64,000 bases of DNA from Salipiger thiooxidans (GTDB lineage: Bacteria > Pseudomonadota > Alphaproteobacteria > Rhodobacterales > Rhodobacteraceae): positions 124,001 to 188,000 of the forward strand of contig NZ_FNAV01000008.1 of assembly GCF_900102075.1 (NCBI RefSeq), written 5' to 3'. The notes below the pieces were generated by a model, which worked only from the letters and a program-made list of their open reading frames with translations, had not been told where the DNA came from and ran no database searches. Positions 10,241 through 41,080 of this stretch are shown here, piece by piece. The position numbers and the translations under genes were made by a program. How positions within the stretch are numbered: the first letter of the stretch is position 1; each line of letters starts with the position of its first letter.

Positions 10241-12691
10241 ATGGTTGCCATCCCCTCCAAGGCCCGCGTCGTCATCATCGGCGGCGGCGTCTCGGGCTGC
10301 TCGGTCGCCTATCACCTCGCCAGGCTCGGCTGGACCGATATCGTGCTGCTCGAGCGCAAGCAGCTCACCTCGGGCACCACGTGGCACGCGGCGGGGCTCA
10401 TCGGGCAGCTGCAGCCGAGCCAGAACCGCACACGGCTGGCCAAGTATTCCGCCGACCTCTACGCCCGGCTTGAGGAAGAGACCGGGCTCGCCACCGGCTT
10501 CCGGCAATGCGGCTCGATGACCGTGGCGCTGAGCGAGGAGCGCCGGGAAGAGATCTTCCGGCTGGCGGCGCAGGCCCGTGCCTTCGGCGTCGAGGTCAAC
10601 GAGCTGACACCGGACGAGGTGCTGAGGCTCTATCCGCATCTCAACCCCGACGGCGTGGTGGCGGGCGTTCACCTGCCGATGGACGGGCAGGCCGATCCGG
10701 GCAACATCGCGCTGGCGCTGGCCAAGGGCGCCCGTCAGAACGGCGCGCTGATCGCCGAGCGGGTCAAGGTCACCCGCGTGACCGAGGCGGACGGCCGCGT
10801 CACCGGGGTCGATTACGAACAGGACGGCGCGCCGGGCCACATCACCGCCGAGCACGTGGTCAACTGCGGCGGCATGTGGGGGCGCGAGCTTGCGGCGCAG
10901 AACGGCGTGACCCTGCCGCTGCACGCCTGCGAGCATTTCTACATCGTCACCGAGGGCATCCCCGGCCTTTCCCGGCTGCCGGTGCTGCGGGTGCCGGAGG
11001 AATGCGCCTATTACAAGGAGGATGCGGGCAAGATCCTGCTGGGGGCCTTCGAGCCCAAGGCCAAGCCCTGGGGCATGGACGGCATCCCCGAAACCTTCGA
11101 GTTCGACCAGCTGCCCGAGGATTTCGACCATTTCGAGCCCATCCTCGAGGCGGCGGTCAACCGGATGCCGATGCTGGCCGAGGCGGGCATCCACACCTTC
11201 TTCAACGGCCCCGAGAGCTTTACCCCAGACGACCGCTACTATCTTGGCGAGGCGCCGGAGCTGAAGAACTACTGGGTGGCGGCGGGCTACAACTCTATCG
11301 GCATCATCTCCTCGGGCGGGGCCGGCATGGCGCTGTCGCAGTGGATGGACAGCGGCGAGCCGCCCTTCGATCTGTGGGAGGTCGATATCCGCCGCGCCCA
11401 GCCGTTCCAGCGCAACCGCCGCTACCTCAGGGAGCGGGTGACCGAGACTCTGGGGCTGCTCTATGCCGACCATTTCCCCTACCGGCAAATGGCCTCGGCG
11501 CGGGGGGTGCGGCGCTCGGTGCTGCACGATCAGCTGAAGGCCCGCGGCGCGGTCTTTGGCGAGGTGGCGGGCCACGAGCGCGCCAACTGGTTCGCCGAGC
11601 CGGGGCAGGAGCCCGAGTATCGCTACAGCTGGAAGCGGCAAAACTGGTTTGCCAACCAGCGCGCCGAGCACATGGCGCTGCGCGACGGCGTCGGGCTGCT
11701 CGACATGAGCAGCTTCGGCAAGATCCGCGTCGAGGGGCGCGATGCGCTGTCCTTCCTGCAGACGGTCTGCGCCAACGACATGGACGTGGCGGCGGGGCGC
11801 ATCGTCTACACCCAGATGCTGAACGCGCGCGGCGGCATCGAGTGCGACCTGACGGTGACGCGGCTTTCCGAGACGGCGTTCTTCCTCGTGGTGCCGGGCG
11901 CGACGCTGCAGCGCGACCTCGCGTGGCTCCGGCGGCACGTGGGCGAGGGCTTTGTCGTCATCACCGACGTAAGCGCGGCCGAGACGGTGCTGCCGCTCAT
12001 GGGTCCCAAATCGCGTGAGCTGCTGTCGCGGGCATCACCCGCCGATTTCGGCAACGAGCCGCATCCGTTCGGCATGGCGCGCGAGATCGAGATCGGCATG
12101 GGCCTCGCCCGTGCCCACCGGGTGACCTACGTGGGCGAGCTTGGCTGGGAGCTGTATGTCGGCACCGATCAGGCCGCGCATGTCTTCGAGACGCTGCTCG
12201 AGGCGGGCGAGGATCTCGGGCTGAAGCTCTGCGGGCTGCACGCCATGGACAGCTGCCGCATCGAGAAGGGCTACCGCCATTTCGGCCACGACATCACCGA
12301 CGAGGACCACGTGCTCGAGGCCGGGCTCGGGTTTGCGGTGAAGACCGGCAAGGGCGCGTTCATCGGGCGCGAGGCGGTGCTGCGCAAGCGCGAGGAGGGG
12401 CTGTCGCGGCGGCTGGTGCAGTTTCGGCTGAAGGACCCCGAGCCGCTGCTCTTCCACAACGAGCCGGTGCTGCGCGACGGGAAGATCGTCGGGCACGTGA
12501 CCTCGGGCAACTACGGCCACACGCTCGGCGGCGCCATCGGGCTGGGCTACGTGCCTTGCCGGACGCCCGGCGAGCCCGCCGCCGAGATGCTGGCGTCCAG
12601 CTATGCCATCGAGGTGGCGGGTCAGGTCTTCGAGGCCGATGCAAGCCTGCGGCCGATGTACGACCCGGCCTCCGAGCGCGTGAAGCTCTGA
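10241..12691 (+). CDS. Dimethylglycine/sarcosine dehydrogenase, FAD oxidoreductase fused to GcvT
   Basis: 816 residues. The N-terminal DAO-type FAD domain has VVIIGGGVSGCSVAYHLA and the motif GTTWHAAGL, whose His (H49) is the covalent flavin attachment site in the dimethylglycine/sarcosine dehydrogenase family. The C-terminal half is an aminomethyltransferase (GcvT) domain that binds tetrahydrofolate and captures the methyl group as 5,10-methylene-THF. The ATG at 10241 is chosen because it begins directly before the FAD motif and has GAAGGA 9 bases upstream. The product demethylates N-methylated glycines from betaine breakdown, and exact substrate is undecided. Regulation is probably by the divergent XRE-cupin protein. 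Confidence 0.9.
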   Translation: MVAIPSKARVVIIGGGVSGCSVAYHLARLGWTDIVLLERKQLTSGTTWHAAGLIGQLQPSQNRTRLAKYSADLYARLEEETGLATGFRQCGSMTVALSEERREEIFRLAAQARAFGVEVNELTPDEVLRLYPHLNPDGVVAGVHLPMDGQADPGNIALALAKGARQNGALIAERVKVTRVTEADGRVTGVDYEQDGAPGHITAEHVVNCGGMWGRELAAQNGVTLPLHACEHFYIVTEGIPGLSRLPVLRVPEECAYYKEDAGKILLGAFEPKAKPWGMDGIPETFEFDQLPEDFDHFEPILEAAVNRMPMLAEAGIHTFFNGPESFTPDDRYYLGEAPELKNYWVAAGYNSIGIISSGGAGMALSQWMDSGEPPFDLWEVDIRRAQPFQRNRRYLRERVTETLGLLYADHFPYRQMASARGVRRSVLHDQLKARGAVFGEVAGHERANWFAEPGQEPEYRYSWKRQNWFANQRAEHMALRDGVGLLDMSSFGKIRVEGRDALSFLQTVCANDMDVAAGRIVYTQMLNARGGIECDLTVTRLSETAFFLVVPGATLQRDLAWLRRHVGEGFVVITDVSAAETVLPLMGPKSRELLSRASPADFGNEPHPFGMAREIEIGMGLARAHRVTYVGELGWELYVGTDQAAHVFETLLEAGEDLGLKLCGLHAMDSCRIEKGYRHFGHDITDEDHVLEAGLGFAVKTGKGAFIGREAVLRKREEGLSRRLVQFRLKDPEPLLFHNEPVLRDGKIVGHVTSGNYGHTLGGAIGLGYVPCRTPGEPAAEMLASSYAIEVAGQVFEADASLRPMYDPASERVKL

Positions 12692-12743: not shown

Positions 12744-14054
12744 CTATTCCGCCGCGGTGCCGTAGGCCACGTTGCGCCCGCCGTAGCGCCGCACCCGCAG
12801 GTTGGCCTGTTCGGCGTGGCCGACGAAGCCTTCGAGCATGCAGAGCCGCGAACAGTACTCGCCGATCTCCGCCGCCGCCGCGTCGGTGGTGACCTTCTGG
12901 TAGGAGTGGGTCTTGAGGAACTTGCCGACCCAGAGCCCGCCGGTGTAGCGCCCCGCCTTCCTGGTCGGCAGCGTGTGGTTGGTGCCGATCACCTTGTCAC
13001 CGTTGGCGACATTGGTGCGCGGCCCGAGGAACAGCGCGCCGTAGCAGGTCATGTTCTCGAGGTACCAGTCGTCGCGGTCGGTCATCACCTGCACGTGCTC
13101 GGAGGCGATGTCGTCGGCCACCGCCAGCATCTCGTCGTAGCTGTCGCAGAGGATGACCTCGCCGTAATCCTCCCAGCTCTTGCGGGCGGTCTCGGCGGTG
13201 GGAAGGATCGAGAGGATGCGCTCGACCTCGGCCAGCGTTGCGGTGGCGAGGCTTTCCGAGTTGGTCACCAGCACCGCGGGCGAGTTGTAGCCGTGCTCGG
13301 CCTGCCCGAGCAGGTCGGTGGCGCACATCTCGGCGTCTACGGTGTCGTCGGCGATCACCATGGTCTCGGTCGGTCCGGCGAAGAGGTCGATGCCGACGCG
13401 CCCGAAGAGCTGGCGCTTGGCTTCGGCGACGAAGGCGTTGCCGGGACCCACCAGCATGTGCACCGGCTCCATGGTCTCGGTGCCGATGGCCATGGCGCCG
13501 ATGGCCTGGATGCCGCCCAGCACGTGGATCTCGTGGGCGCCGCCGAAATGCATCGCCGCGATCACGCCGGGGTTTGGCTTGCCCTTGAAGGGCGGGGTGC
13601 AGGCGACGATGCGGGGCACGCCGGCCACCGCGGCGGTCAGCACCGACATGTGCGCCGAGGCCACCATCGGGAACTTGCCGCCGGGCACGTAGCAGCCCAC
13701 CGACTGCACCGGGATGTTGCGGTGGCCGAGGATCACGCCGGGCAGGGTCTCGATCTCGATGTCGAGCATCGACGCCCGCTGCGCCTCGGCGAAGGCGCGG
13801 ACCTGGGCCTGGGCGAAGTGGATGTCCTCGATCTCGCGCGGGGTGAGCTGGGCGATCAGCGCGTCGATCTCGTCCTGGCTGAGGCGGAAGCTCTGCGGTG
13901 CGTAACCGTCGAATGTCTCGCTCAGCTCGCGCACGGCGACGTCGCCGCGTGACTCGATGTCCTTCAGCGTGGCCTCGACCGTGGCGCGCACCTTCTCGTC
14001 GTCCTCGTTGCGCAGATCGGCCGGGCGGCCCGTCTTGAGATGGCGGATGGCCAT
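12744..14054 (-). CDS. Histidinol-dehydrogenase-family NAD+ dehydrogenase (HpsN-like)
   Basis: 436 residues, zinc- and NAD-dependent fold of histidinol dehydrogenase. Expected metal/catalytic positions are visible: QAEHG (zinc Gln and His), SEHVQV (catalytic Glu-His pair), the Asp in [16 protein letters not shown], and a C-terminal His in [10 protein letters not shown]. It is not in a histidine operon. It sits between a methylated-amine dehydrogenase and a LacI regulator, so it is a catabolic paralogue like sulfopropanediol 3-dehydrogenase (HpsN). The substrate is unknown. The ATG at 14054 has GGAGGAG just upstream. Divergent from the LacI gene, with operator-like dyads in between. Confidence 0.85.
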
Positions 14055-14184: not shown

Positions 14185-15168
14185 ATGCCCAAGGTCACGG
14201 CGAAACTGGTGGCAGAGCGGGCCGGCGTGTCGGTCGCGGCGGTGAGTCGCGCCTTTCAGCCGGGCGCGCCGCTGGCGCCCGAAAAGCGCGCGCTGGTGTT
14301 GCGTATCGCGCAGGAGCTCGGCTACGTGCCGCCCGCCGCGCGCAGCCTCAGCCAGCTCGGGACGCGGAGCGTGAGCCTCGTCGCGGGCGATCTCACGAAC
14401 CCGTTCTACTCGGGCGTGCTCGAACTGCTGTCGCAGGAACTGCACAAGCGCGGGCGGCGGCTGACCCTGCACGCGGTGCCCCCGGGCGAGACCGTGGACG
14501 TGGCGATGGAGCAGGTGCTGGGCTATCGCGCCGACGCCGCTATCGTGACCTCAGCGCACATGTCCTCCGAGCTGGTGCGCCGCTGCCGCGAGGCCAACCT
14601 GCCGGTGGTGCTGCTGAACCGGGTGCAGCCCGACAGCCGGATGACCGCGGTGACCTGCGACAACCACGCGGGCGGGCGGCTGATCGCGGCGCGGTTCCTG
14701 ACGTCGGGTCGGCAGCGCATCGGGCACATGACCGGGGTCCCCGACACCTCGACCCATATCGAGCGGTCGCGCGGGTTCCTCGACCGGCTGGCCGAGGCTG
14801 ACCGCGTGCCCGTCGTCAGTGCCTGCGGCGGCTTCTCCTACGCCGGTGCTATGGAGGCGGCGGCCGATATGCTCGACGGCGGCCCGCGGCCCGACGCGGT
14901 GTTCTGCGAGAACGACGTCATGGCGCTGGCGCTGATCGATGCGGCGCGGGCGCGGGGGCTGCGGGTGCCCGAGGATCTGGCGGTGATCGGCTTTGACGAT
15001 ATCCCGATGGCGGGGTGGCAATCCTACCGGCTGACCACCGTGCGCCAGCCGATCCGCCGCATGGTGGCCGAGGCGCTGACCCTGATCGAGCAGCTGCAGA
15101 GCGACGGCGCGGGCTGCGGCGCGATCCGGGTGCTGCCCGTCGACCTCGTTGCCCGCGACACCGGCTAG
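14185..15168 (+). CDS. LacI-family transcriptional regulator
   Basis: 327 residues. The N-terminal helix-turn-helix is [20 protein letters not shown], followed by the hinge and a periplasmic-binding-protein-like effector domain with [12 protein letters not shown] near the end, diagnostic for LacI/GalR. The ATG is preceded by GGAGGAG. It is divergent from the HisD-like dehydrogenase, its most likely target. It could also influence the TTT island downstream, but a convergent GntR gene intervenes. Effector unknown. Confidence 0.88.
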
Positions 15169-15177
15169 AGCGGCGGC

Positions 15178-15849
15178 CTAGCGCAGGCCGCGCCGGCGCT
15201 CCTCGAGCGTGGCGGCGGCCGAGAGGATGTGCACCCGCATCGCCGCCTGCGCCAGCGGCCCGTCGCGCAGACGGAAGGCGCGCATGAGCAGCCGGTGGTC
15301 GCCGTCGCTGCGTGCCGTGTCCTCGTCCGAGAACTGCCGGTAGGTCATCGTCAGGATCGCAAGGTCGGTCAGCTGGGTGACGATCTTCTCTGCATGCGCC
15401 ACGCCCGAGATCCGCAGGATCCGCATGTGCAGCGTCCGGTTCAGGCCGCTGCGCAAGGCGGCGTCGTCGCTGGCCTCCATGCCGTCGCAGAGCTGCTCGA
15501 GCTCCAGCAGGTCATGGGCGGTGATGCGCTCGGCGCAGCGATAGGCGGCGGTGCCCTCGATGTCGGCGCGCACCTCGAAGCTGCTGTTGACCTCGTCGGG
15601 ATTCCAGCGCCGCACCATGGCGCCCGCGTGGGGCCGCACCTCGATGTAGCCGTCGGCGGCGAGGTTGCGCAGCGCCTCGCGGACCGGGGTGCGGCTGACG
15701 CCGAGCTCGGCGGCGAGCGCCGCCTCTCCCAGCTTGTCGCCCGAGCGCAGCGCCCCCGAGATGATGCCGTCGCGCACGTGCAGATAGACCCGCGCCACGT
15801 TGGTGCCCTCGGTCAGGTGGGCGGGAAGGTCGGGAAGGTAATCCTCCAT
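15178..15849 (-). CDS. GntR-family (FCD/VanR) regulator of the TTT island
   Basis: 223 residues. Winged helix-turn-helix with EAALAAELGVSRTPVREALR, then an all-helical FCD ligand-binding domain in which metal-ligand-type residues are plausible (RTLHMRI, DHRLLM). FCD regulators usually sense small carboxylates. The ATG at 15849 is chosen because further upstream codons form a leader unlike the family. It is divergent from tctC, and three TGTATGC repeats in the 133-base intergenic region are likely binding sites. Probably represses the transporter-lyase-hydratase operon until its carboxylate is present. Confidence 0.88.
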   Translation of the reverse strand: MEDYLPDLPAHLTEGTNVARVYLHVRDGIISGALRSGDKLGEAALAAELGVSRTPVREALRNLAADGYIEVRPHAGAMVRRWNPDEVNSSFEVRADIEGTAAYRCAERITAHDLLELEQLCDGMEASDDAALRSGLNRTLHMRILRISGVAHAEKIVTQLTDLAILTMTYRQFSDEDTARSDGDHRLLMRAFRLRDGPLAQAAMRVHILSAAATLEERRRGLR

Positions 15850-15886
15850 CGCGGGCGCTCCGTGCTCATGAAAATTTTTCACTCCC

Positions 15887-15969
15887 TGTATGCTGCATTG
15901 ACGAGATGTATGCAATGATGCTGAAAAGACGCCAGAGGAGACCAATAATCAGCATCGTTGTATGCAATA
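15887..15969. promoter_or_regulatory. Three TGTATGC repeats, candidate GntR operators
   Basis: TGTATGCTGCA (15887-15897), TGTATGCAATGA (15907 on) and TTGTATGCAATAA (from 15959) lie in the GntR-tctC divergent region. The third copy approaches the TTGTATACAA-type palindrome common for FadR-group regulators. The spacing suggests multiple operator occupancy including one next to the tctC ribosome-binding site. Confidence 0.55.
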
Positions 15970-15982
15970 AGGGAGGAAAGCA

Positions 15983-16972
15983 ATGACCTACACACGCAGA
16001 ACACTGCTGCGCACCGCACTGGCCGCGCCGGCGGTGCTCGGGCTCGGGACGCTGGGGGCGAACGCCTATCCTGCGCGCAAGCTGTCGCTGGTGGTGCCGT
16101 TCGACGCGGGTGGCTCGGCGGACCGCATGGCGCGCGCCATCGCGCAGTTCCTGCCCTCGGAGCTCGGCGAGACGCCGGTCACCGTGGTGAACCGCTCGGG
16201 CGGTTCGGGCGCGCTGGGGCACAGCTGGTTCGTGCGCCAGCCCGACGACGGCAGCTTCGCGCTGGTCTCGCCGGTGAACCCCTACCTGATCTCGAACGTC
16301 CTGCGCGGGCAGGGCGGCCTGAACTGGGAGGACTTCCACCACATCAACGGCCAGTGGCAGGATTACTACGCCGTCTTCGTGAACAACGAGCAGCCCTACC
16401 AGACAATGGCCGAGCTGGTGGCCGACATCCGCGACAACCCCGGCAAGGTGAGCTGCGCCATCATCCCCGGCGACGGCGGCCACATCTCGGCGCTGATCCT
16501 GCTCGAGACACTGGGCATCCCCGAGACCAACGTGAACTGGGTGACCTATGACGGTGGCGGGCCGATGCGCACCGCGATCGCCGGCAACCAGGTGACGATG
16601 ACCTTCACCGCGGCACTCGGCAGCAACGTCATCAAGGATCAGGTCCGCGCGCTCGCCGTCTACCGCAACGAGCCCGATCCCGACCGCTGGGACGCGCCGG
16701 TGATCAACGAGGCGCTGACCGAGCTCGGCGTCGAGGTGCCGGTGCTGGCCGCCGACCTGCGCTGCCTCTCGGTGCAGTCGAGCTTTGTCGAGAAGCACCC
16801 GGACGTCTATGAAGAGCTGGTCGCGGCCTACAAGCGGATGCTCGAGCGCGACGACTTCAAGGCGTTCATCGCCGAGGGCCAGATCGGCGGCGACTGGCTG
16901 GGCCCCGAGGCGACCGCGGCCTCGCTCCAGCAGAGCTACGACGTGTTCTCGCGCTACATCTCGCAGATGTAA
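15983..16972 (+). CDS. tctC: TTT transporter substrate-binding protein (TctC/Bug family)
   Basis: 329-residue periplasmic binding protein of the tripartite tricarboxylate transporter. The N-terminus YTRRTLLRTALAAPA has a twin-arginine-like motif and ends GANA, so Tat or Sec export is possible. The mature part opens with KLSLVVPFDAGGSADRMAR, the Bug-family carboxylate-binding loop. GGAGG lies just before the ATG. First gene of an operon with tctB 4 bases downstream, tctA, a lyase and a LeuCD-like pair, so the ligand is probably a di- or tricarboxylate. Regulated presumably by the divergent GntR protein. Confidence 0.9.
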   Translation: MTYTRRTLLRTALAAPAVLGLGTLGANAYPARKLSLVVPFDAGGSADRMARAIAQFLPSELGETPVTVVNRSGGSGALGHSWFVRQPDDGSFALVSPVNPYLISNVLRGQGGLNWEDFHHINGQWQDYYAVFVNNEQPYQTMAELVADIRDNPGKVSCAIIPGDGGHISALILLETLGIPETNVNWVTYDGGGPMRTAIAGNQVTMTFTAALGSNVIKDQVRALAVYRNEPDPDRWDAPVINEALTELGVEVPVLAADLRCLSVQSSFVEKHPDVYEELVAAYKRMLERDDFKAFIAEGQIGGDWLGPEATAASLQQSYDVFSRYISQM

Positions 16973-16976
16973 TCCG

Positions 16977-17444
16977 ATGAACCTGACTGCGAACAGAGCG
17001 GGCCATTTCGGCCTGCTCGCCCTTCTTGCAGGCTTCACCCTGTGGTTCACCGCCTCCGCGTGGGAGGCGGACGCGACCCTGGTGAACATGATCCTGATTG
17101 GTCCGGTCGCGTTCCTGGCGCTGGGGCTGATCGCCGCCATCGGCATCGGCCTGCTGCTGAACCCCGAACGCGATGCCGAGCCCGCAGAGCCCGCCGAGAC
17201 CGACACGTTCCGCGAGCGCTGGGGCGTGGCCATCGGCTGCCTTGCGCTGGCGCTCTACGTGCTCAGCCTCGAGACCATCGGCTTCGACGTGGCGGGCGTG
17301 ATCTTCTGCGCCGCCTGCATGGTGCTCATGGGGCGCCGCAACTGGCTGGTGATCGCGGCTTATTCGCTCTTCGTGGGGCTTGCCCCCGTCTGGATCCTCG
17401 AGGGTCCGATGGGCATCCCCGTCCACACGCTGATCCTGGAGTAG
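16977..17444 (+). CDS. tctB: TTT transporter small membrane subunit TctB
   Basis: 155 residues with four predicted membrane helices and the low sequence conservation typical for TctB. It starts 4 bases after the tctC stop and ends 4 bases before tctA, so the three are cotranscribed and translationally close. Identification rests on size, hydropathy and position. Confidence 0.85.
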   Translation: MNLTANRAGHFGLLALLAGFTLWFTASAWEADATLVNMILIGPVAFLALGLIAAIGIGLLLNPERDAEPAEPAETDTFRERWGVAIGCLALALYVLSLETIGFDVAGVIFCAACMVLMGRRNWLVIAAYSLFVGLAPVWILEGPMGIPVHTLILE

Positions 17445-17448
17445 ACCG

Positions 17449-18984
17449 ATGCTGGACCTCGCCGCCATCTGGGATGCCTTCGGCATGCTCTTCGCGATGC
17501 CCATGGCCTGGGTCGTGGTGCCGCTGGGGCTGCTGATCGGGCTGGTCTTCGGCGCCGTGCCGGGGCTCTCGGTGCCCATCGCCATGGCCGTCTTCCTGCC
17601 GATGACGCTCTACATGGAGTTCACCGAGGCCATCCTCTTCCTCACCGCGATCTTCACCGGCGGCGGCTTCGGCGGCTCGATCCCGGCGATCCTGATGAAC
17701 GTGCCCGGCACCTCGGCCGCCATCGCCACCTGTTTCGACGGCCACCCGATGGTGCGCCGGGGCGAGCACAACCGCGCGCTCGGCCTCGCGCTCGGCGCCT
17801 CGACGGTGGGTACGGCGGTGGGCTACCTGCTGCTCTTTCTGGTGCTCGAGCCGATCTCGGGCTTCGTGCTCCGGCTGGGCCCTTCCGAGCTGTTCCTCGT
17901 CGCCGTCATCGGCCTGCTGCTGATCGGGCTGATGACCGACGGGCGCTTCGCCCGGGCGGTGGTCGCGGGCTGCATCGGCGTGCTGCTGTCGCTCATCGGC
18001 ATGAGCAGCGCCGGCATCGAGCGCGGCACCTTCGGCAGCATCTACCTGCTCGACGGAATCGACGCCAACGCCGCCATCATCGGCATCTTCGCCGCCTCCG
18101 AGCTGTTCCGGCTGGTCAAGCACGACTACCTCGTCGAGGCGCAGGACAAGCGGTCGGTGTCGATCCGCGAGATCGCCCGCGGCTTCGCCGACATCCGCCA
18201 CAACCTGCCGACGCTGGGCCGCGGCTCGCTGCTTGGCGCGGGGCTGGGCGTGATCCCGGGCATCGGTTCGTCGATCGCCAACCTCGTGAGCTACACCATC
18301 ACCAAGCAGCTCTCGAAGGAGCCCGAGAGCTTCGGCAAGGGCAACCCGAACGGCGTGGTCGCGGCAGAATCCGCCAATTCCTCGTCCGAGGGCGGCTCGA
18401 TGGTGGGCCTGCTCGCGCTCGGCATCCCGTCAAGCGCCGCCACCGCGATCATGCTCTCGGCCTTCTCGATGCACAACATCACCGGCGGGCCGCGCTTCAT
18501 CTCGGACCAGAAGGATGTGGTCTACGCGATCATCGCGGGCAACCTGATCCAGGCGGTGATGCTGGGCATCATCGGGCTGCTCTTCATCCGCATGATCGTC
18601 TACCTCGTGCGGGTGCCGCTCAGCTACCTGCTGCCGCCCATCGTGATCTGCACCGTGCTGGGCAGCTACGCGCTGACCTCGAGCCTCTCGGGGCCGGTCA
18701 CGCTGGTCGCCTTCTCGTTCCTCGGCGTGGTGCTGAAGCGCTACAACTACTCGGTGGTGGCGACCGTCATCGGCCTGCTGCTGGGCCTGATGATGGAGGG
18801 CAACCTCGTGCGGACCTGGCAGCTCGGCGGCTCGAGCCTCAGCCCGATGTTCACCCGCCCGGTCTCGCTCGTGCTGATCGCGCTGATTGTCGCCTCGGTG
18901 GCGCTGGCGCTCTGGGTCACGGCCCGCCGCAAATCCTCGCAACCCTTTAGGCAAACCGGCGAACCGCACCGCGGCGACGCCTGA
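17449..18984 (+). CDS. tctA: TTT transporter large membrane subunit TctA
   Basis: 511 residues, about twelve membrane helices. It has the TctA signatures GAVPGLSVPIAMAVFLP, GGGFGGSIPAILMNVPGT, DGHPM and, in the second half, GLGVIPGIGSSIANLVSYT with AESANSSSEGGSMVG. It is the ion-coupled channel of the TctABC importer, in the inner membrane. Placed directly before the lyase gene in the same operon. A decayed TctA fragment from a different system is present near 52.2 kb. Confidence 0.93.
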   Translation: MLDLAAIWDAFGMLFAMPMAWVVVPLGLLIGLVFGAVPGLSVPIAMAVFLPMTLYMEFTEAILFLTAIFTGGGFGGSIPAILMNVPGTSAAIATCFDGHPMVRRGEHNRALGLALGASTVGTAVGYLLLFLVLEPISGFVLRLGPSELFLVAVIGLLLIGLMTDGRFARAVVAGCIGVLLSLIGMSSAGIERGTFGSIYLLDGIDANAAIIGIFAASELFRLVKHDYLVEAQDKRSVSIREIARGFADIRHNLPTLGRGSLLGAGLGVIPGIGSSIANLVSYTITKQLSKEPESFGKGNPNGVVAAESANSSSEGGSMVGLLALGIPSSAATAIMLSAFSMHNITGGPRFISDQKDVVYAIIAGNLIQAVMLGIIGLLFIRMIVYLVRVPLSYLLPPIVICTVLGSYALTSSLSGPVTLVAFSFLGVVLKRYNYSVVATVIGLLLGLMMEGNLVRTWQLGGSSLSPMFTRPVSLVLIALIVASVALALWVTARRKSSQPFRQTGEPHRGDA

Positions 18985-19007
18985 TCCCAAGAACGGAGAC
19001 AAGACAC

Positions 19008-19871
19008 ATGGCTGACGCAAGACTGAAGCAGGCCATCGCCAAGAAGGAATTCGTCGTCGCCCCGGGCGTCTTCGACCTGATCTCGGCGCTGATGGCGAAC
19101 TCGATGGACTTCAAGGCGCTCTACGTTACCGGCTACGGCACCGTGGCCTCGTATCTCGGCGTGCCCGATGCCGGCATCGCCACCTACCGCGACATGCTCG
19201 AGCGCATCGCGCAGATCTGCAAGCGCACCGAGCTGCCGGTCATCGCCGACGCCGACACCGGCTACGGCGGGCTTCTGAACGTGCGCACTACCGTCGAGGG
19301 CTACGAGGCGGCGGGCGTCACCGCGATGCAGATGGAGGACCAGGAGTTCCCCAAGAAATGCGGTCACACGCCGTTCCGCAAGGTGATCCCCACCAGCGAG
19401 ATGCAGCGCAAGATCGAGGTCGCCGCCAAGGCGCGCAAGTCCGACGACTTCCTGATCATCGCCCGCACCGACAGCCGCACCTCGCTCGGCATCGACGAGG
19501 CCATCGCCCGCGGCAAGGCCTATGCCGAGGCCGGCGCCGACGTGGTCTTCATCGAGAGCCCCGAGTCCGAGGTCGAGATGCTGGCCGTGGCCGAGGCGGT
19601 GAAGGCGCCGCTCTTTGCCAACATGGTCAACGGCGGACGCACGCCGCTGCTCTCCGCCGACCGGCTGGCCGAGATGGGCTATTCCATCGCCATCCACCCG
19701 GCGGTCGGCTTCCTCGCGGTGACGCGGGCGCTTCAGAAGGCCTATGGCGACCTGCTGGCCCATGGCGAGACCACCGACGCGGTGGACCTCTATTCCTTCG
19801 CCGAGATGAACAAGCTGCTGGGCTTCGAGGACATCTGGTCCTTCGAAAAGGAATGGGCCGAGGCCGTCTGA
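19008..19871 (+). CDS. Isocitrate-lyase-superfamily C-C lyase (methylisocitrate/dimethylmalate-lyase type)
   Basis: 287 residues, single-domain PEP mutase/isocitrate lyase barrel. Visible motifs are [11 protein letters not shown] (metal-binding Asp), [13 protein letters not shown] with the lyase catalytic Cys at C118, and IARTDSR. The Cys marks a lyase rather than a phosphonomutase or oxaloacetate decarboxylase. Family members split 2-methylisocitrate or 2,3-dimethylmalate to pyruvate/propionate-type products. ACGGAG precedes the ATG. It overlaps the LeuC-like gene by one base, so lyase and hydratase are made together. This pairing recalls the dimethylmaleate hydratase plus dimethylmalate lyase step of nicotinate fermentation. 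Actual substrate is unknown. Confidence 0.85.
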
Positions 19872-21301
19872 TGACAATCCTGCCCCCCGAGCGGCCCAGG
19901 ACGCTCTATGCAAAGCTCTGGGACAGCCACGTGGTGCGCGAACGCGAGGACGGCTCCACGCTGCTCTATGTCGACCGCCACCTGCTGCACGAGGTCTCGA
20001 CCCCGCAGAGCTTCGTGGCACTGGACCGCCGGGGGCTGCGCCCGCACCGGCCTGCGGCCAATCTCGCGGTGCCGGACCACGCGGTGCCAACCCGGGGTCG
20101 CGACAAGCCCATCGCCGATCCGATGGCGCGGGCCCAGACCGCGCGGCTGGTCGAGAACGTCGACAGGCACGGCATCCCCTTCATTCCGCTCAGCGATGCG
20201 CGGCAGGGGATCGTGCACGTGGTGGGACCCGAGCAGGGCTTCACCCTGCCGGGGATCACTTTGGCCTGCGGCGACAGCCATACCTCGACCCACGGCGCCT
20301 TCGGGGCGCTTGCCTTCGGGGTGGGGGCCTCGGAGTGCGGCATCGTCATGGCGGCGCAGGCGCTGGCACAGCGCCGGGCCCGGACCATGGTGGTGCGGGT
20401 CGAGGGCACACCCGGGCCCGGCGTCACCGCCAAGGACCTCGCGCTTGCGCTGATCGCGCAGCTGGGGGCCAACGGCGCGGCGGGCCACGCCATCGAGTAC
20501 CAGGGCGCGGCGATCCGCGCGCTGTCGATGGAGGCGCGCATGACGCTCTGCAACATGGCCATCGAGGCCGGCGCCCGGGTGGCGCTGATCGCCCCCGACG
20601 AAACCACCTTCGCCTTCCTCGAGGGGCGTCCCATGGCGCCCAAAGGCCCGGAATGGGACGCGGCGGTGGCCTACTGGCGCACGCTGCCCTCGGACGAGGG
20701 CGCGCTTTACGACCGCGAAGTCGTGCTCGATGCGGGCAAGGTGGCGCCCTTCGTGACCTGGGGCACCTCGCCCGAGGACGCCATCGCCATCGACGCCGCC
20801 GTGCCCGATCCCGAGGCCGTCGCCGATCCGGCCCGCGCCGGGCGGCTGCGCAAAGCCATCGCCTACATGGGGCTCGAGGCGGGCCGGCCCATCGCCGGCA
20901 CCCGCATCGACACGGTGTTCATCGGCTCCTGCACCAACGGCCGGCTTGCCGACCTGCGGGCGGCGGCGCAGGTGGTCCGGGGCCGCAGTGTCGCGCCGGG
21001 GGTGCGGGCGCTGGTGGTGCCGGGCTCGGGGCTGGTCAAGGCGCAGGCCGAGGCCGAGGGGCTCGACCTCGTGTTCACCGAAGCCGGGTTCGAATGGCGC
21101 GAGGCGGGCTGTTCGATGTGCGTCGCGATGAACGGCGACAGGCTGGAGCCGGGGCAGCGCAGCGCCTCGACCTCGAACCGCAATTTCGAAGGGCGTCAGG
21201 GCCGGGGCGGGCGCACGCACCTGCTCTCGCCCGCGATGGCGGCAGCGGCGGCGGTGACCGGCGCGCTGACCGACGTCCGAACGCTGGAGGCCATGGCATG
21301 A
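19871..21301 (+). CDS. Aconitase-family hydratase/isomerase large subunit (LeuC-like)
   Basis: 476 residues, very close in sequence to isopropylmalate isomerase large subunit. The three [4Fe-4S] ligands are present: C354 in IGSCTNGR, C414 and C417 in GCSMC. Further LeuC motifs are [18 protein letters not shown] and [13 protein letters not shown]. It starts at the ATG overlapping the lyase stop, and its own stop overlaps the start of the LeuD-like gene. No leuB or leuA is nearby, and the context is TTT transporter plus lyase, so a catabolic role on a 2-substituted malate is more likely than leucine synthesis. If this were the only LeuCD in the genome it could do both. Confidence 0.88.
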
Positions 21302-21906
21302 GCGCACCGCTGATCCGACTCGAGACCCGGGCGATCTCGCTGCCCGAGACCAACACCGACACCGACATCATCTTCCCGGCGCGTTTCCTCTTGAAGATCG
21401 ACCGCGACGGCATGGACGAGTGCCTGTTCCGCGACCGCCGCGTCGGGCCTGAGGGCGAGGCGCTCGACCACCCGTTCGACGACCCCGCGCTGCGCGACGC
21501 GCAGGTGCTGGTGGCGGGGCCGGGCTTCGGCTGCGGTTCCTCGCGCGAGCAGGCGGTCTGGGCGCTGGTCGACTGGGGCATCCGCGTGGTCATCGCGCCG
21601 GATTTCGGCGACATCTTCGCGGGCAACGCCGCCAAGAACGGTCTGCTCTGCGTGCGCCTGCCCGCCGATACCTGCCGCACGCTGGCGGCGCGGGCGGACG
21701 CGGGCGCGCGCTTCGGCGTGGATCTGCCCGCGCGGGTGCTGACGGTGGACGGTGCGCGGGTGGCAGGTCTCGACCTTTCCGACGCGGCGGTGCAGGCTTT
21801 CGGCGAAGGCTGGGACGAGATCGACGTGATCCTCAACCGCGAGATCGACGAGATCCGGCGCTTCGAGGACGATCACCGCGCCCGCCAGCCGTGGCTGTTT
21901 GCCTGA
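21298..21906 (+). CDS. Aconitase-family hydratase/isomerase small subunit (LeuD-like)
   Basis: 202-residue swivel-domain subunit that completes the active site with the LeuC-like protein. Motifs [13 protein letters not shown] and [17 protein letters not shown] are the substrate-binding loops of LeuD. Overlaps the large-subunit gene by four bases (ATGA), indicating translational coupling. The residue after CGSSRE is Q rather than the usual H, a small deviation from biosynthetic LeuD that may reflect another substrate. Confidence 0.88.
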
Positions 21907-21933
21907 GGCGGGCAACCGGAAGAAGGAAAGACC

Positions 21934-22866
21934 ATGACCGCAATCGACACCGTCGCCATCGTTGGCGCCGGGCTGCTGGGGCAGGGCTGGGCCATCGTGT
22001 TCGCCCGTGCCGGAAAGACCGTGCGCATCTTCGACGCCCGCGACGACGCCGAGGCCCAGATCCGGCCGCAGATCGTCGCCGCGCTTGCCGAGATGCAGGC
22101 GGCGGGGCTTTGCGACGCGCCTGACGACTGGCTCGCGCAGATGAGCTTTGCAAAGACGCTCGGGGACGCGGTCGGGGCGGCGGATTACGTGCAGGAATCC
22201 ACCTTCGAGCGCATCGACGTGAAGCGCGAGATCAGTGCTGCCATCAGCGCCGTGCTGCCTGAGCACGCAATCTGCGGCTCGTCGACCTCGGGCTTTCCCG
22301 GCTCGGCCTTCCTCGATCATTGCGACAACCGCGCGCGCATGCTGGTCATGCACCCGGTCAACCCGCCGCACCTCGTGCCCATCGTCGAGATCGTGCCGAC
22401 GCCCTGGACCGATCCCGCGGTCCCCGTCCGCGCCCGGGCGCTGATGGAGGAGGTGGGCCAGTCGCCGGTGTCGCTCGACCGCGAGATCCCGGGCTTCGTG
22501 CTCAACCGCCTGCAGGGCGCGCTGCTCGACGAGGCCTTCGCGCTGCTGGCCGAGGGCTATGCCAGCGCCGAGGACATCGACCGCACGGTGCGCGACGGGC
22601 TGGGGCTCCGCTGGGCCTTCATGGGACCGTTCGAGACCATCGACCTCAACGCGCCGAAAGGGCTCGCCGATTACGCCGAGCGGCTCGGACCGATGTTCGC
22701 GGGCTTTGCTGAGCAACGGCAGGCGGACCGCGACTGGCGCCCCGAGGCGGTGGCCCGGGCCGATGCCGAGCGGCGCGAGGCGCTGCCCGAGACCGGGCTC
22801 GCCGACCGGCGCAACTGGCGCGACGCCATGCTCATGGCGATCCTGCGGGCGAAACAGCAGGGCTGA
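21934..22866 (+). CDS. 3-hydroxyacyl-CoA dehydrogenase family protein, lambda-crystallin/carnitine-dehydrogenase type
   Basis: 310 residues with a Rossmann nucleotide site VAIVGAGLLGQGWAIVFARAG, the GSSTSGFPGS and HPVNPPHLVPIVEIV motifs and PGFVLNRLQGALLDEAF leading to the helical C-terminal domain. This subgroup acts on free hydroxy acids (L-gulonate, carnitine, 3-hydroxy acids) rather than CoA esters. It lies 27 bases after the LeuD-like gene in the same operon, so it likely oxidises a hydroxy acid formed from the imported carboxylate. Confidence 0.85.
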   Translation: MTAIDTVAIVGAGLLGQGWAIVFARAGKTVRIFDARDDAEAQIRPQIVAALAEMQAAGLCDAPDDWLAQMSFAKTLGDAVGAADYVQESTFERIDVKREISAAISAVLPEHAICGSSTSGFPGSAFLDHCDNRARMLVMHPVNPPHLVPIVEIVPTPWTDPAVPVRARALMEEVGQSPVSLDREIPGFVLNRLQGALLDEAFALLAEGYASAEDIDRTVRDGLGLRWAFMGPFETIDLNAPKGLADYAERLGPMFAGFAEQRQADRDWRPEAVARADAERREALPETGLADRRNWRDAMLMAILRAKQQG

Positions 22867-22911
22867 ACGCCCTGCGCTGACGACGACAAGACCGACGAAA
22901 GAGGACGGATC

Positions 22912-24072
22912 ATGCAGGGCTTCACCTTCAACACCACGCCTTCTGTGGTCTTCCGCGATGGCGCCGCGGCAGACCTGGGCGCCATCGCGGGCGCGCGGCT
23001 TGGGCCGCGGGTGCTCTTTGTCACCGACCCGGGCCTGCGCAAGCTGGGGCTCTGCGACGGGGCCATCGCCTCGCTCGAGGTCGCGGGCGCCGAGGTGACG
23101 CTCTACGACCGCATCGAGCCCGACCCGACGCTCGCCATCCTCGACGAGGCCACCGAGGCCGGCCGGGCGGCGGCGGTCACCGGGGTCGTGGGCTTCGGCG
23201 GCGGCTCGTCGCTCGACATCGCCAAGGTCGCGGCGCTTCTGCTCGGCTCGGGCGAGCCGCTGGACGAGGCGTGGGGCGTCGGCAACGCCAGGGGCCCGCG
23301 CCTGCCGCTGGTGCTGGTGCCGACGACGGCGGGCACCGGTTCGGAGGTGACGCCGGTGTCGATCCTGACGGTGAGCGCGGTCGAGAAGCGCGGCGTCTCG
23401 TCGCCGGTGATCCTGCCGGATCTGGCGCTGCTCGACCCGTCGCTGACCGTCGGCCTTCCGGGGGCGATCACCGCTGCCACCGGCGTCGACGCCATGGTCC
23501 ACGCCATCGAGGCTTATGCCTCGGCCAGCCCCAACAACAACCCGCAGAGCCGGATGCTGGCGCGCGAGGCGCTGCGGCTGCTCGGCGCCAACATCGAGAC
23601 CGCCTACACCACGCCGGGCGACGTCGCCGCGCGCGGCGCGATGCTCTACGGCTCGATGCTGGCGGGGCAGGCCTTCGCCAACTCGCCGGTGGCCGCGGTG
23701 CATGCGCTGGCCTACCCGATCGGCAGCGGCTTCCACATCCCGCACGGGCTCTCGAACGCGCTGGTGCTGCCGCATGTGCTGCGCTTCAACGCGCCCGAGG
23801 CCCACGCCACCTACGCCGAGATCGCGCCCGACGCCTTCCCGGCGCTGGCGGAGATCGCCGACAGCGCCGCCCGCTGCGACGCCTTCATCGCCGCGCTCGA
23901 GGCGCTGGCGGCGCGGCTTGACCTGCCGCCACGGCTGCGCGACGTGCAGATCCCCGAGAGCGCGCTCGAGGGCATGGCGCGCGACGCGATGCTGCAGCAG
24001 CGCCTGCTGGTCAACAACCCGCGCCCCGTCACCGAGGCCGACGCGCTGGCGATCTACCGCGCCGCGTGGTGA
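22912..24072 (+). CDS. Iron-containing alcohol dehydrogenase
   Basis: 386 residues, group III metal-dependent dehydrogenase. NAD-binding GFGGGSSLDIAK, PTTAGTGSEVTP, and iron ligands in GVDAMVHAIEAY (Asp and His), AVHALAYPIG and FHIPHGLSNA are all present. It ends the operon that begins at tctC, 45 bases after the previous gene. Relatives include 4-hydroxybutyrate dehydrogenase, lactaldehyde reductase and maleylacetate reductase. The likely job is interconversion of an aldehyde and alcohol arising from the lyase step, an inference from context. Confidence 0.88.
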   Translation: MQGFTFNTTPSVVFRDGAAADLGAIAGARLGPRVLFVTDPGLRKLGLCDGAIASLEVAGAEVTLYDRIEPDPTLAILDEATEAGRAAAVTGVVGFGGGSSLDIAKVAALLLGSGEPLDEAWGVGNARGPRLPLVLVPTTAGTGSEVTPVSILTVSAVEKRGVSSPVILPDLALLDPSLTVGLPGAITAATGVDAMVHAIEAYASASPNNNPQSRMLAREALRLLGANIETAYTTPGDVAARGAMLYGSMLAGQAFANSPVAAVHALAYPIGSGFHIPHGLSNALVLPHVLRFNAPEAHATYAEIAPDAFPALAEIADSAARCDAFIAALEALAARLDLPPRLRDVQIPESALEGMARDAMLQQRLLVNNPRPVTEADALAIYRAAW

Positions 24073-25175: not shown

Positions 25176-27212
25176 ATGAGCACTGATCCCCTGCTGCTGC
25201 CCTACCAGCTCAAGCACCTGACCCTGAGAAACCGCATCCTCATCACCAGCCACGAGCCGGCCTATCCCGAGGACGGCATGCCCAAGGACCGCTACCGCGC
25301 CTATCACGTGGAGCGGGCGAAGGCGGGCGTGGCGCTGACGATGACCGCGGGGTCGGCCTCGGTGTCGCGCGACAGCCCGCCGGTCTTCAACAACATCCTC
25401 GCCTGGAAGGATGAGGTGGTGGGCCACATGAAGAAGCTCGTCGGCGAGTGCCACGACGAGGGCTGCGCGGTGATGATCCAGCTCACCCACCTTGGCCGCC
25501 GCACCCGCTGGGACAAGGGCGACTGGCTGCCGGTGGTCTCGCCGGGCTACGAGCGCGAGCCGGCGCACCGGGCCTTCCCAAAGAAGATGGAGGACTGGGA
25601 CATCGCCCGCATCATCGAGGATTACGGCGACGCGGCCGAGCGGATGAAGGCGGCGGGGCTCGATGGCATCGAGCTCGAAGCCTACGGCCACCTGTTGGAC
25701 CAGTTCTTCTCGCCCCTGACCAACGATCAAGACGCGCCTTACGGCGGCGATCTCGACAACCGCATGCGCTTTGCCTTCGACGTGCTGCGCGAGATCCGCA
25801 GGCGCTGCGGCGAGGAGTTCCTCGTGGGCGTGCGCTACAGCGGTGACGAGTGTCTCCCCGGCGGGTTCGGCAAGGCCGAGGGGCTGGCCATGTCGCAAAA
25901 GCTCAAGGACAGCGGGCTGGTGGATTTCCTCAACGTCGTGCGCGGCCACATCGACACCGACCCGGGGCTGACCGACGTCATTCCGATCCAGGGCATGCGC
26001 AACGCGCCGCATCTGGATTTCGCCGGCGAGATCCGCGCGGCGACGAATTTCCCGACCTTCCACGCGGCCAAGATCCCCGACGTGGCGACCGCGCGCCACG
26101 CCATCGCCAGCGGCAAGCTCGACATGGTGGGCATGACCCGCGCGCACATGGCCGACCCGCATCTCGTGCGCAAGATCGTCGAGGGGCGCGAGGACGACAT
26201 CCGCCCCTGCGTCGGTGCCAATTACTGTCTCGACCGGATCTACCAGGGCGGCATGGCGCTTTGTCTGCACAACCCCTCCACCGGGCGCGAGATCGAGATG
26301 CCGCACGCCATCGAGAAGGCGGCCGAGGCCAAGCGGGTGACCGTCGTGGGCGCAGGCCCGGCGGGGCTCGAGGCGGCGCGGGTGGCGGCCGAGCGCGGCC
26401 ACATCGTCACCGTGCTCGAGGCGGCCGACCAGCCCGGCGGGCAGATCCGCCTGACGGCGCGGCAGGAGCGGCGGCGCGAGATGATCTCGATCGTCGCCTG
26501 GCGCTTCGAGCAATGCGAGAAGCTGGGCGTGAGCTTCCGCTTCAACACCTTCGCCGAGATGCATGACGTGCTCGCCACCGAGCCCGACGAGGTGATCGTC
26601 GCCACCGGCGGGCTGCCCCACACCGAGGTCCTGGGCGCGGGCAACGAACTGGTGGTCTCGGCATGGGACATCCTCTCGGGCGACGTGGTGCCGGGCCGGA
26701 CGGTGCTGGTCTACGACGATGCGGGGGACCATGCCGGTCTGATGGCCGCGGACATGATCGCCGAGACCGGGGCCTCGGTCGAGATCGTCACCCCGGACCG
26801 CAGCTTCGCGCCCGAGGTGATGGCGATGAACCTCGTGCCCTACATGCGCAACCTGCAGAAGCGCGACACCACCTTCACGGTGACGTGGCGGCTGGCAGAG
26901 GTGCAGCGCGAGGGCAACGGGCTGCGCGCGGTGCTGGGTTCGGACTACGGCGCCTTCAGCCGCGAGCGGCAGGTCGACCAGGTGGTGGTGAACCACGGCA
27001 CGCGGCCGCTGGACGATCTCTACTTCGAGCTGAAGCCGCTGTCGCGAAACCTGGGAGAGGTCGATTACGAGGCGCTCGCGACCGGCGGGGTTCAGGCGGT
27101 CGAGGCGAACCCCGAGGGGCGCTTCCGGCTCTACCGCATCGGCGACGCCGTGGCCTCGCGCAATACCCACGCGGCGATCTACGACGGGCTGCGGCTGGCG
27201 CGGGCGCTGTAG
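25176..27212 (+). CDS. NADH:flavin oxidoreductase of the trimethylamine-dehydrogenase/N-methylproline-demethylase type
   Basis: 678 residues. An N-terminal old-yellow-enzyme FMN barrel (LTHLGRRTRW, YGGDLDNRMRF) is followed by an Fe-S loop and a C-terminal FAD/NAD domain (VTVVGAGPAGLEAARVAAERG). This is the domain order of trimethylamine and dimethylamine dehydrogenase, 2,4-dienoyl-CoA reductase and the stachydrine/N-methylproline demethylases. The Fe-S loop reads C345-VGANY-C351 with C363 further on, and the position of the fourth Cys (348) is Ala. CGGAGG lies 8 bases before the ATG at 25176. Likely demethylates an N-methylated compatible solute; substrate not proven. Confidence 0.85.
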   Translation: MSTDPLLLPYQLKHLTLRNRILITSHEPAYPEDGMPKDRYRAYHVERAKAGVALTMTAGSASVSRDSPPVFNNILAWKDEVVGHMKKLVGECHDEGCAVMIQLTHLGRRTRWDKGDWLPVVSPGYEREPAHRAFPKKMEDWDIARIIEDYGDAAERMKAAGLDGIELEAYGHLLDQFFSPLTNDQDAPYGGDLDNRMRFAFDVLREIRRRCGEEFLVGVRYSGDECLPGGFGKAEGLAMSQKLKDSGLVDFLNVVRGHIDTDPGLTDVIPIQGMRNAPHLDFAGEIRAATNFPTFHAAKIPDVATARHAIASGKLDMVGMTRAHMADPHLVRKIVEGREDDIRPCVGANYCLDRIYQGGMALCLHNPSTGREIEMPHAIEKAAEAKRVTVVGAGPAGLEAARVAAERGHIVTVLEAADQPGGQIRLTARQERRREMISIVAWRFEQCEKLGVSFRFNTFAEMHDVLATEPDEVIVATGGLPHTEVLGAGNELVVSAWDILSGDVVPGRTVLVYDDAGDHAGLMAADMIAETGASVEIVTPDRSFAPEVMAMNLVPYMRNLQKRDTTFTVTWRLAEVQREGNGLRAVLGSDYGAFSRERQVDQVVVNHGTRPLDDLYFELKPLSRNLGEVDYEALATGGVQAVEANPEGRFRLYRIGDAVASRNTHAAIYDGLRLARAL

Positions 27213-40432: not shown

Positions 40433-41080
40433 TCAGCCCGCGAAGTCGGCCCAGGCGGCGGCGAAATCGCGGGCCTTGGCGGCCACGGTCGCGGCGCTGT
40501 CGCCGGGCTTGTAGAGCGCGCTGCCAAGGCCGAAGCCCGCGACGCCCGCCGGCTTGAAGGGCTCCATGGTGGTGGGCGAGATGCCGCCCACGGGGAAAAG
40601 CCGGGTGCCCGTGGGCAGGATGGTGCGGATCGCCTTGATCACGACCGGGCCCACGAGCTCGGCCGGGAAGATCTTGAGCGCCGCGGCACCGGCGTTGAGT
40701 GCGGCATAGGCCTCGGTCGGGGTGGCGATGCCGGGGATGCAGATCATGCCCTTGGCCACGGCCTGGCCGATCACCGCCACGTCGGCGTGCGGCATCACCA
40801 CGAGATCGGCGCCGATCGCGTCGAGCCGGTCGACGTCGGCGATGGTGGTGACGGTGCCCGCGCCCACCAGCGCATCGGCGGGCAGCGCCTTGCGCACCGC
40901 CGCGATGCTGTCGAAGGGCTGCGGCGAGTTCAGCGGGATCTCGATCAGGCGGAAGCCCTCGTCATAGAGCGTCTGTGCGATCTCCACCGCCTCTTCGGGG
41001 CGCAGGCCCCGCAGGATGGCGACGAGAGGAAGCGCGCTGCAGGCGGCGTCGAGGCGGGTGAGGCGGTCGGTGTCAGTCAT
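40433..41080 (-). CDS. dgoA: 2-dehydro-3-deoxy-6-phosphogalactonate aldolase
   Basis: 215 residues, class I KDPG/KDPGal aldolase. Catalytic features: Glu in FRLIEIPLNSPQP, GAGTVTTIADVDR, and the Schiff-base Lys in AAALKIFPAE. The variant LIEIPLNSP is that of KDPGal aldolases. Splits KDPGal to pyruvate and glyceraldehyde 3-phosphate. Overlaps dgoK by 8 bases, so kinase and aldolase are coupled. Operon order iclR-dgoK-dgoA on the minus strand. Confidence 0.92.
   Translation of the reverse strand: MTDTDRLTRLDAACSALPLVAILRGLRPEEAVEIAQTLYDEGFRLIEIPLNSPQPFDSIAAVRKALPADALVGAGTVTTIADVDRLDAIGADLVVMPHADVAVIGQAVAKGMICIPGIATPTEAYAALNAGAAALKIFPAELVGPVVIKAIRTILPTGTRLFPVGGISPTTMEPFKPAGVAGFGLGSALYKPGDSAATVAAKARDFAAAWADFAG

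Follow-up and report, generated by a model that had tools for sequence, protein, structure and literature searches.

A putative operon for import, hydration and cleavage of a branched dicarboxylate in Salipiger thiooxidans

What is a LeuCD-like hydratase doing in one operon with a carboxylate importer and an isocitrate lyase-type lyase? The question is raised by a stretch of 64,000 nucleotides of Salipiger thiooxidans DNA (the window), taken from a draft genome of 5.87 Mb and 68 contigs. A sequence-only reading had singled out positions 15178-24072 for the tctC-tctB-tctA genes of a tripartite tricarboxylate transporter (TTT), a lyase with C118, a LeuC/LeuD-like pair, two dehydrogenases and a divergent GntR regulator. 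All of these are present at the coordinates in Table 1, and family assignments from Pfam and NCBIfam agree with that reading. TctA, TctB and TctC each score above their Pfam cut-off, which places the importer in the TTT group; the best solved structure for the tctC product is 25hk, followed by BugD. The genes are closely packed. Gaps of 4 bp separate tctC from tctB and tctB from tctA, and the gaps from tctA to the lyase gene, from leuD to the lambda-crystallin-type dehydrogenase gene and from there to the iron-containing alcohol dehydrogenase (Fe-ADH) gene are 23, 27 and 45 bp; leuC and leuD overlap by four bases, and the one-base overlap reported earlier between the lyase gene and leuC is found at base 19871. 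With no gap above 45 bp and two overlaps, a single transcription unit is likely. Judged by its protein families, the operon would import a branched small acid, hydrate it and split it, and the recurrence of the enzyme pair in related bacteria suggests an undescribed nutrient pathway.

The partnership of the two enzymes was followed in 55 lyase loci (L035-L089; the four weakest matches, L090-L093, were excluded), 42 of which have the full 10 kb on both sides. Gene counts rest on tblastn, because a first gene caller, trained on the codons of the window, found few genes in several loci; a second caller picked wrong-strand frames in several, and its genes were relied on only where they had been scanned against family models. 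LeuC is present in 21 of the 55 loci, 11 times as an Escherichia coli-like LeuC1 type and 10 times as a HacA-like LeuC2/LeuD2 type, the latter in Roseomonas, Pseudoroseomonas, Aquabacter and an Acetobacteraceae strain. All ten LeuC2 loci contain a TctC gene and four an Fe-ADH gene; in Roseomonas haemaphysalidis the order is LacI-LeuC2-LeuD2-lyase-Fe-ADH-TctC in a row. Five LeuC2-paired lyases form one clade (support 100) in a lyase tree of 31 rows. That a single lyase clade combines with LeuCD of two distinct types argues well for a functional pair, so the gene neighbourhoods support the view that the LeuCD-like pair and the lyase belong together, as had been assumed earlier. The arrangement that marks the dimethylmaleate hydratase/dimethylmalate lyase pair, an adjacent isocitrate lyase-type lyase with KKCGH or KRCGH beside LeuCD, is also what is found here.

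The operon itself recurs as well. The order GntR-tctCBA-lyase-leuCD-dehydrogenase is found in Rhizobium sp. GN54, Rhizobium sp. NFR07 and Tianweitania aestuarii, and a Skermanella plasmid, typed as mobilizable, contains GntR-tctCBA-leuC-leuD-lyase. Its retention in three other strains of two genera and on the Skermanella plasmid is more than chance. The window lyase shares 89% identity with the Rhizobium GN54 enzyme and clusters with the GN54, NFR07 and Tianweitania lyases (support 100), a pattern suggestive of horizontal transfer.

Other arrangements of the pair were also seen. A degenerate locus of Salipiger pallidus (L087/L112) has kept the HisD-like, LacI, GntR, LeuC and LeuD genes; the stretch from GntR to the lyase yielded no tct genes, and only part of the lyase matches, interrupted by an in-frame stop. 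On plasmid p3 of Azospirillum brasilense (L191), a LeuCD pair and an ATP-binding cassette importer lie between two different lyases, which share 36% and 60% identity with that of the window. Plasmid pJE1 of Sphingomonas sp. JE1 (L192) has two LeuCD pairs, one with an isochorismatase-family gene, two polysaccharide-deacetylase-family genes and a lyase, the other adjoining a CoA-transferase gene and a 3-hydroxy-3-methylglutaryl-CoA lyase-like gene. A literature search on pJE1 returned nothing, and none of the four searched gene names of the cluster occurs in the accessible part of the tomatine paper PMC10653915.

We propose, with a probability of roughly 0.6, that the genes form a catabolic operon, inducible by its substrate, for the use of a substituted C4 dicarboxylate. 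A 2-substituted or 2,3-disubstituted maleate or malate would enter through the TTT system. The LeuCD-like Fe-S enzyme would then hydrate the maleate, or shift the hydroxyl group, to give the lyase substrate, and the KKCGH lyase would split the C2-C3 bond into a 2-oxo acid, most likely pyruvate, and a carboxylic acid. These steps are drawn from family chemistry and from the conserved partnership. PrpB, dimethylmalate lyase and petal death protein all cleave to a 2-oxo acid and a carboxylic acid; petal death protein (PSR132, 1zlp) is a plant 2-alkylmalate lyase. In LeuC, the motifs GSCTNGR and GCSMC contain Cys 354, 414 and 417, which presumably serve the Fe-S cluster. In what is the weakest step of the scheme, both dehydrogenases, perhaps with a HisD-like enzyme encoded nearby, would oxidise or reduce a hydroxylated side-chain fragment toward central metabolism. 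It can be speculated that a 2-methyl-3-R-malate would yield pyruvate and R-CH2-COOH, and that, were R hydroxylated, the second product would be a 3-hydroxy acid, a type of compound that lambda-crystallin-type dehydrogenases use. The window dehydrogenase, for which lambda-crystallin 3ado is the nearest solved structure, may process a cleavage product, as may the Fe-ADH.

The same genes could serve a simpler purpose, the use of citraconate or citramalate, in which LeuCD would hydrate citraconate to (R)-citramalate for cleavage to pyruvate and acetate. Citraconate is a substrate of isopropylmalate isomerases and 2-methylmalate one of petal death protein, and import, hydratase and lyase would fit together with no further enzymes. 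However, this would leave both dehydrogenases idle, although relatives of the lambda-crystallin-type enzyme and of Fe-ADH are found near the lyase elsewhere (6 and 8 of the 55 loci), and we consider the citraconate route unlikely.

What the lyase cleaves bears on another possibility, a variant of the methylcitrate pathway in which an imported tricarboxylate is isomerised and then cleaved to pyruvate and succinate. On its sequence, the lyase clearly falls in the short PrpB/dimethylmalate lyase branch of the phosphoenolpyruvate (PEP) mutase/isocitrate lyase superfamily, with C118 in a KKCGH motif. D81, D83, E110, C118, R153 and E183, all of which we take to be functional residues, are unchanged in 31 of 31 aligned lyases. 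The best NCBIfam match is indeed the prpB equivalog TIGR02317, but at 270.3 bits it stays below the cut-off of 354.4. A profile of the 31 members of the lyase clade ranks petal death protein (237.5 bits) above 4iqd (226.7), dimethylmalate lyase (217.8) and methylisocitrate lyase (213.4). The segments TGYGT and NMVNGG of the window lyase resemble SGYSV and NMIEGG of petal death protein and TGAGT and NMVEHG of dimethylmalate lyase, and are unlike SGGGV and NLTEFG of methylisocitrate lyase 3eoo. An AlphaFold model (mean pLDDT, predicted local distance difference test, 87.4; residues 44-58 below 50) and a fold search confirm the lyase fold without separating methylisocitrate lyase from 2-alkylmalate lyase; methylisocitrate lyase comes first in that search. 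There is no prpC- or acnD-type gene among the operon genes, prpC not having been searched for in the rest of the genome. Taken together, a methylisocitrate route is quite unlikely. The sequence-only reading had named a 2-substituted malate or a tricarboxylate as the imported compound; the former may hold, and the latter, with methylisocitrate, has become less likely because the lyase misses the PrpB cut-off and the clade profile puts petal death protein first.

A more prosaic reading is that LeuCD is a spare isomerase for leucine, or for isoleucine by the citramalate route, which became the neighbour of a transporter and a lyase by chance. Both proteins pass the NCBIfam leuC and leuD equivalog cut-offs, which speaks for it. 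However, the genome has two LeuC genes (E <= 1e-60; the other two aconitase-family matches are AcnA-like and AcnB-like). Contig C48 carries the leuB gene (40441-41496; score above the cut-off), and the other LeuC gene is 6 kb away on the same strand (47591-48991), followed by a LeuD gene whose product scores 261.4 bits on TIGR00171 vs 131.1 for the window LeuD. The window copy is on contig C49, away from leuB; linkage to leuB was examined in the window genome. The sequence-only reading had proposed to look for a second leuCD beside leuB and its refuting case had required, first of all, that the window pair be the only leuCD of the genome; with the genes on C48, it is not. An AcnB-type aconitase gene is also encoded in the window itself (37388-40177, minus strand; PRK09238 956.9 bits, cut-off 782).

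In a tree of 46 LeuC proteins, a clade with support 100 unites 16 copies without a nearby lyase, the C48 copy among them. The window LeuC is outside it, in a clade of 14 rows (support 96) made up of 13 lyase-adjacent copies and one from a relative of the same genus (G002), whose lyase match is partial and contains an in-frame stop. Lyase linkage changes twice on this tree vs 14.1 times in shuffles; for most of the 16 copies, only some 1.5 kb of flanking sequence was covered, and the rows are biased to lyase loci. Because of this bias, a separate count was made in 148 relatives picked regardless of the lyase, in which the matches listed comprise 150 LeuC copies in 124 genomes and 91 lyases (E <= 1e-35). 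The following figures hold among the matches listed. In none of the 100 genomes with a single LeuC is there a lyase less than 10 kb from it. The 24 genomes with more than one have 50 copies between them, of which 23 are this close to a lyase; if one copy per genome is biosynthetic, 23 of about 26 extra copies are lyase-linked, and extra copies without such a link occur in G060, G105 and G122.

The small subunit differs as well. LeuD could be compared in 39 of the 46 rows, 11 biosynthetic and 28 lyase-linked. All 28 lyase-linked copies have R at position 29, where 10 of 11 biosynthetic ones have Q; at position 87, 26 of the 28 have V and all 11 biosynthetic ones P. The loop FLKTIKRTGLG, or a similar one, of the biosynthetic copies is altered in the window LeuD. 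Neither is the window LeuC of the HacA type, as it scores 304.1 bits on hacA_fam (cut-off 385.7), which LeuC2 of L088 passes with 466.5. Judged by clade, leuB linkage, lyase linkage and loop changes, the window LeuCD is a second, non-biosynthetic copy and not the leucine enzyme, and a spare isomerase is very unlikely.

The HisD-like and LacI genes, which adjoin the GntR gene, were left out of the range in the sequence-only reading; its operon content holds, but 6 of the 55 loci have the HisD-like gene close to the lyase (L035, L036, L037, L038, L055 and L087), in varying arrangements. The nearest solved structures of its product are HpsN/dihydroxypropanesulfonate dehydrogenase (379 and 366 bits), followed by histidinol dehydrogenase (246). 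Its alignment with the sulfopropanediol dehydrogenase HpsN spans about 400 residues and takes in the Glu-His and Asp-Lys segments, whose roles in HpsN are given in the accessible part of PMC11382572. The same part of that paper gives the recognition motif as GRY[AS]H for HpsN and GSAPL for HisD. The HisD-like rows have GKFPM instead in seven of eight cases and GKYPL in one (seven organisms, L087 and L112 being one), so on the motif as given there they do not match HpsN. The enzyme is probably an alcohol-to-acid dehydrogenase acting on another substrate than that of HpsN. A phosphonate or sulfonate pathway built on a PEP mutase-family enzyme, a PhnR-like GntR, a SarD-like Fe-ADH and an HpsN-like neighbour is extremely unlikely, for although PhnR (91 bits), SarD (265.4) and HpsN (379) are the best matches of the three proteins, PhnR and SarD are far below their cut-offs (271.5 and 700), PEP mutase reaches 110.6 bits against a cut-off of 319.55, the motif said in the accessible part of the HpsN paper to bear the sulfonate-binding His is missing, and LeuCD would have no role.

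The gap between the GntR gene and tctC contains TGTATGCAAT twice, where 0.02 are expected in the window. The 5.87 Mb assembly has no other exact copy, and the backwards control gave none. A related box, ATGCATACAAT, was found by eye in the equivalent gap of L035, and related boxes also occur in the GntR-tctC gaps of L036, L037, L064 and L074. This pattern looks like the footprint expected of a local regulator with a single target. Given the conservation of the boxes, we suggest that the divergent GntR protein would bind the two TGTATGCAAT sites and thereby control the operon.

Several observations weigh against a dicarboxylate operon of the proposed kind. The fetched flanks of 34 of the 55 lyase loci hold no LeuC, tctA is present in only five, and only 24 of the 91 lyase matches in the wider count are within 10 kb of a listed LeuC; many lyases therefore work without a nearby LeuC1-type LeuCD. 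The three closest operons, of GN54, NFR07 and Tianweitania aestuarii, lack Fe-ADH. The window LeuC and LeuD pass the leucine cut-offs, as said above. Taken alone, the window lyase ranks 4iqd (189.7 bits) above petal death protein (181.6), and petal death protein is sixth in the fold search, nearly tied with the first; since these rankings disagree with the clade profile, 2-alkylmalate specificity is not established. Finally, a box was found neither in L087, where tctCBA is missing, nor, under the strict pattern, in L190 and L197, the L190 gap having only looser look-alikes, CATTGTACACAATG, found by eye.

Table 1. Features of the putative operon and its immediate neighbours (window coordinates; bit scores with family cut-offs where given).
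Feature	Position	Strand	Basis or remark
HisD-superfamily dehydrogenase	12744..14054	-	Motif GKFPM fits neither HisD nor HpsN; may be an accessory gene of the pathway
LacI-type regulator	14185..15168	+	Named by eye and homology; close homologue (at least 50%) in 6/55 lyase loci
GntR/FCD regulator, divergent	15178..15846	-	PF00392 70.9 bits; PF07729 67.2 bits
Candidate GntR operator box 1, TGTATGCAAT	15907..15916	+	Pattern count, window and assembly
Promoter-like site between the boxes	15921..15949	+	1 found vs 0.4 expected; weak
Candidate GntR operator box 2, TGTATGCAAT	15959..15968	+	Pattern count, window and assembly
tctC, periplasmic solute-binding protein of TTT importer	15983..16972	+	PF03401 40.8 bits, cut-off 27
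tctB, small membrane subunit	16977..17444	+	PF07331 44.9 bits, cut-off 29.1
tctA, large membrane subunit	17449..18984	+	PF01970 405.3 bits, cut-off 28.9
PEP mutase/isocitrate lyase superfamily C-C lyase, 2-alkylmalate lyase-like, C118	19008..19871	+	PF13714 157 bits, cut-off 31.5
LeuC-like large subunit, putative hydratase/isomerase, non-biosynthetic clade	19871..21301	+	TIGR00170 690.5 bits, cut-off 560.25
LeuD-like small subunit, altered loop residues	21298..21906	+	TIGR00171 131.1 bits, cut-off 116.25
Lambda-crystallin-type dehydrogenase, 3-hydroxyacyl-CoA dehydrogenase family	21934..22866	+	PRK06129 408.7 bits, cut-off 347
Iron-containing alcohol dehydrogenase (Fe-ADH)	22912..24072	+	PF00465 149.1 bits, cut-off 31.3; nearest NCBIfam SarD, below cut-off

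Outside these features, the region is flanked by a GcvT/ThiO-like fusion of the dimethylglycine dehydrogenase type (10241-12691; NCBIfam matches below cut-off) and an old-yellow-enzyme relative (25176-27212; 474 bits vs 793 for the mycofactocin old yellow enzyme, 284 vs 750 for bilirubin reductase). Neither shows any sign of operon membership.

Where the substrate might come from is hinted at by the other lyase loci. A flavin monooxygenase, with PnpA and 6-hydroxy-3-succinoylpyridine 3-monooxygenase as nearest solved relatives, accompanies the lyase in 30 of the 55. Arylmalonate-decarboxylase-family proteins, which we take to be analogous to maleate isomerase, are found in 29 of these 30 and an isochorismatase-family amidase in 25; a PuuE-like protein occurs in 20 and a NicF-like amidase in 34 of all 55. 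LeuC is present in seven of the 30 (L038, L043, L053, L071, L077, L083 and L086). These clusters (for example L042, L046 and L062) also contain an aldehyde dehydrogenase, short-chain dehydrogenases/reductases, a metallo-beta-lactamase-fold protein, a GntR regulator and the NicF-like amidase, often with the PuuE-like protein, and the gene content looks like an undescribed degradation pathway for an N-heterocycle or imide. Riboflavin catabolism was considered and rejected, the enzymes in the accessible part of PMC12746152 being unrelated.

Two more cluster types combine the lyase with hydantoinase/oxoprolinase A and B and an isochorismatase-family protein; LeuCD adjoins in L110 and is about 6 kb off in L153. 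In L153 (9604-19461) and similar Rhodobacteraceae loci, HyuA/HyuB, the isochorismatase-family protein and the lyase occur together; a DctP gene and a GntR-LeuC-LeuD unit are found some 6 kb off, a further association of the lyase with LeuCD. From these gene contents we infer a recurring theme in which a lactam or imide would be opened, ammonia removed and a substituted maleate delivered. A close flavin monooxygenase was not found in the window genome (best 26%, vs 62-63% in the positive controls G016 and G081), nor was a close NicF-like amidase (best 34%, in a search that had no positive-control genome). The window organism would then start from the diacid, consistent with its TTT importer.

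A wider reading, which we put forward tentatively and regard as doubtful as a whole, is that the extra alphaproteobacterial "leuCD" genes are mis-named substituted-maleate hydratases which, with a 2-alkylmalate lyase, form a shared lower pathway with varied upper feeds. In this joint reading, a flavin monooxygenase with a PuuE-like hydrolase, HyuAB, and a NicF-like half-amidase would convert N-heterocycles and cyclic imides to substituted maleamates, and the window operon would import the resulting diacid directly. A bold candidate for the substrates would be the disubstituted maleates that tetrapyrrole breakdown might supply (ethylmethylmaleimide, hematinic acid), from which the lyase would yield pyruvate and butyrate or glutarate. 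The extra leuCD copies pass the cut-offs for leucine-biosynthesis annotation and are named so in public records; should they instead be hydratases for scavenging carbon, these annotations, and any metabolic models derived from them, would be wrong at that step, and there would be a degradation pathway for a class of branched dicarboxylates. Among the matches listed, extra LeuC copies are mostly beside an isocitrate lyase-type lyase and single ones are not, and this rule makes the idea directly testable.

The sequence-only reading did not recognise the combination with a TTT importer from any described pathway, and in the full-text literature searched, most subscription journals lying outside that scope, no account of a lyase, LeuCD and TTT system was found. 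The parts have known counterparts. With isopropylmalate isomerase LeuCD, the window pair shares the subunit architecture, the cysteine motifs and the hidden Markov model match, but it differs in clade, in the missing leuB linkage and in the changed LeuD loop. PrpB and aconitase of the methylcitrate cycle share with it the superfamily and the logic of an isomerase plus a lyase; however, the window lyase is below the PrpB cut-off and its partner is LeuCD instead of aconitase. Petal death protein PSR132 (1zlp) is the top solved relative of the lyase-clade profile and has the PKKCGH segment in common with it, but it is a plant enzyme, 36% identical to the window lyase, and we know of no hydratase partner.

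Dimethylmaleate hydratase DmdAB and 2,3-dimethylmalate lyase act in nicotinate fermentation by Eubacterium barkeri. Like the window pair would, they combine a LeuCD-superfamily hydratase and a PEP mutase/isocitrate lyase-type lyase in series on a substituted maleate/malate. The type of chemistry is thus already known and, by analogy, the operon is a variant of that pair. DmdAB is of the HacA type, its large subunit DmdA presumably belonging to the HacA/DmdA type, whereas the window pair is of the LeuC1/LeuD1 type, and the Roseomonas LeuC2/LeuD2 version is closer in kind to DmdAB. Unlike the DmdAB system, the window pair belongs to an alphaproteobacterium and is encoded together with a TTT importer, two dehydrogenases and a GntR regulator.

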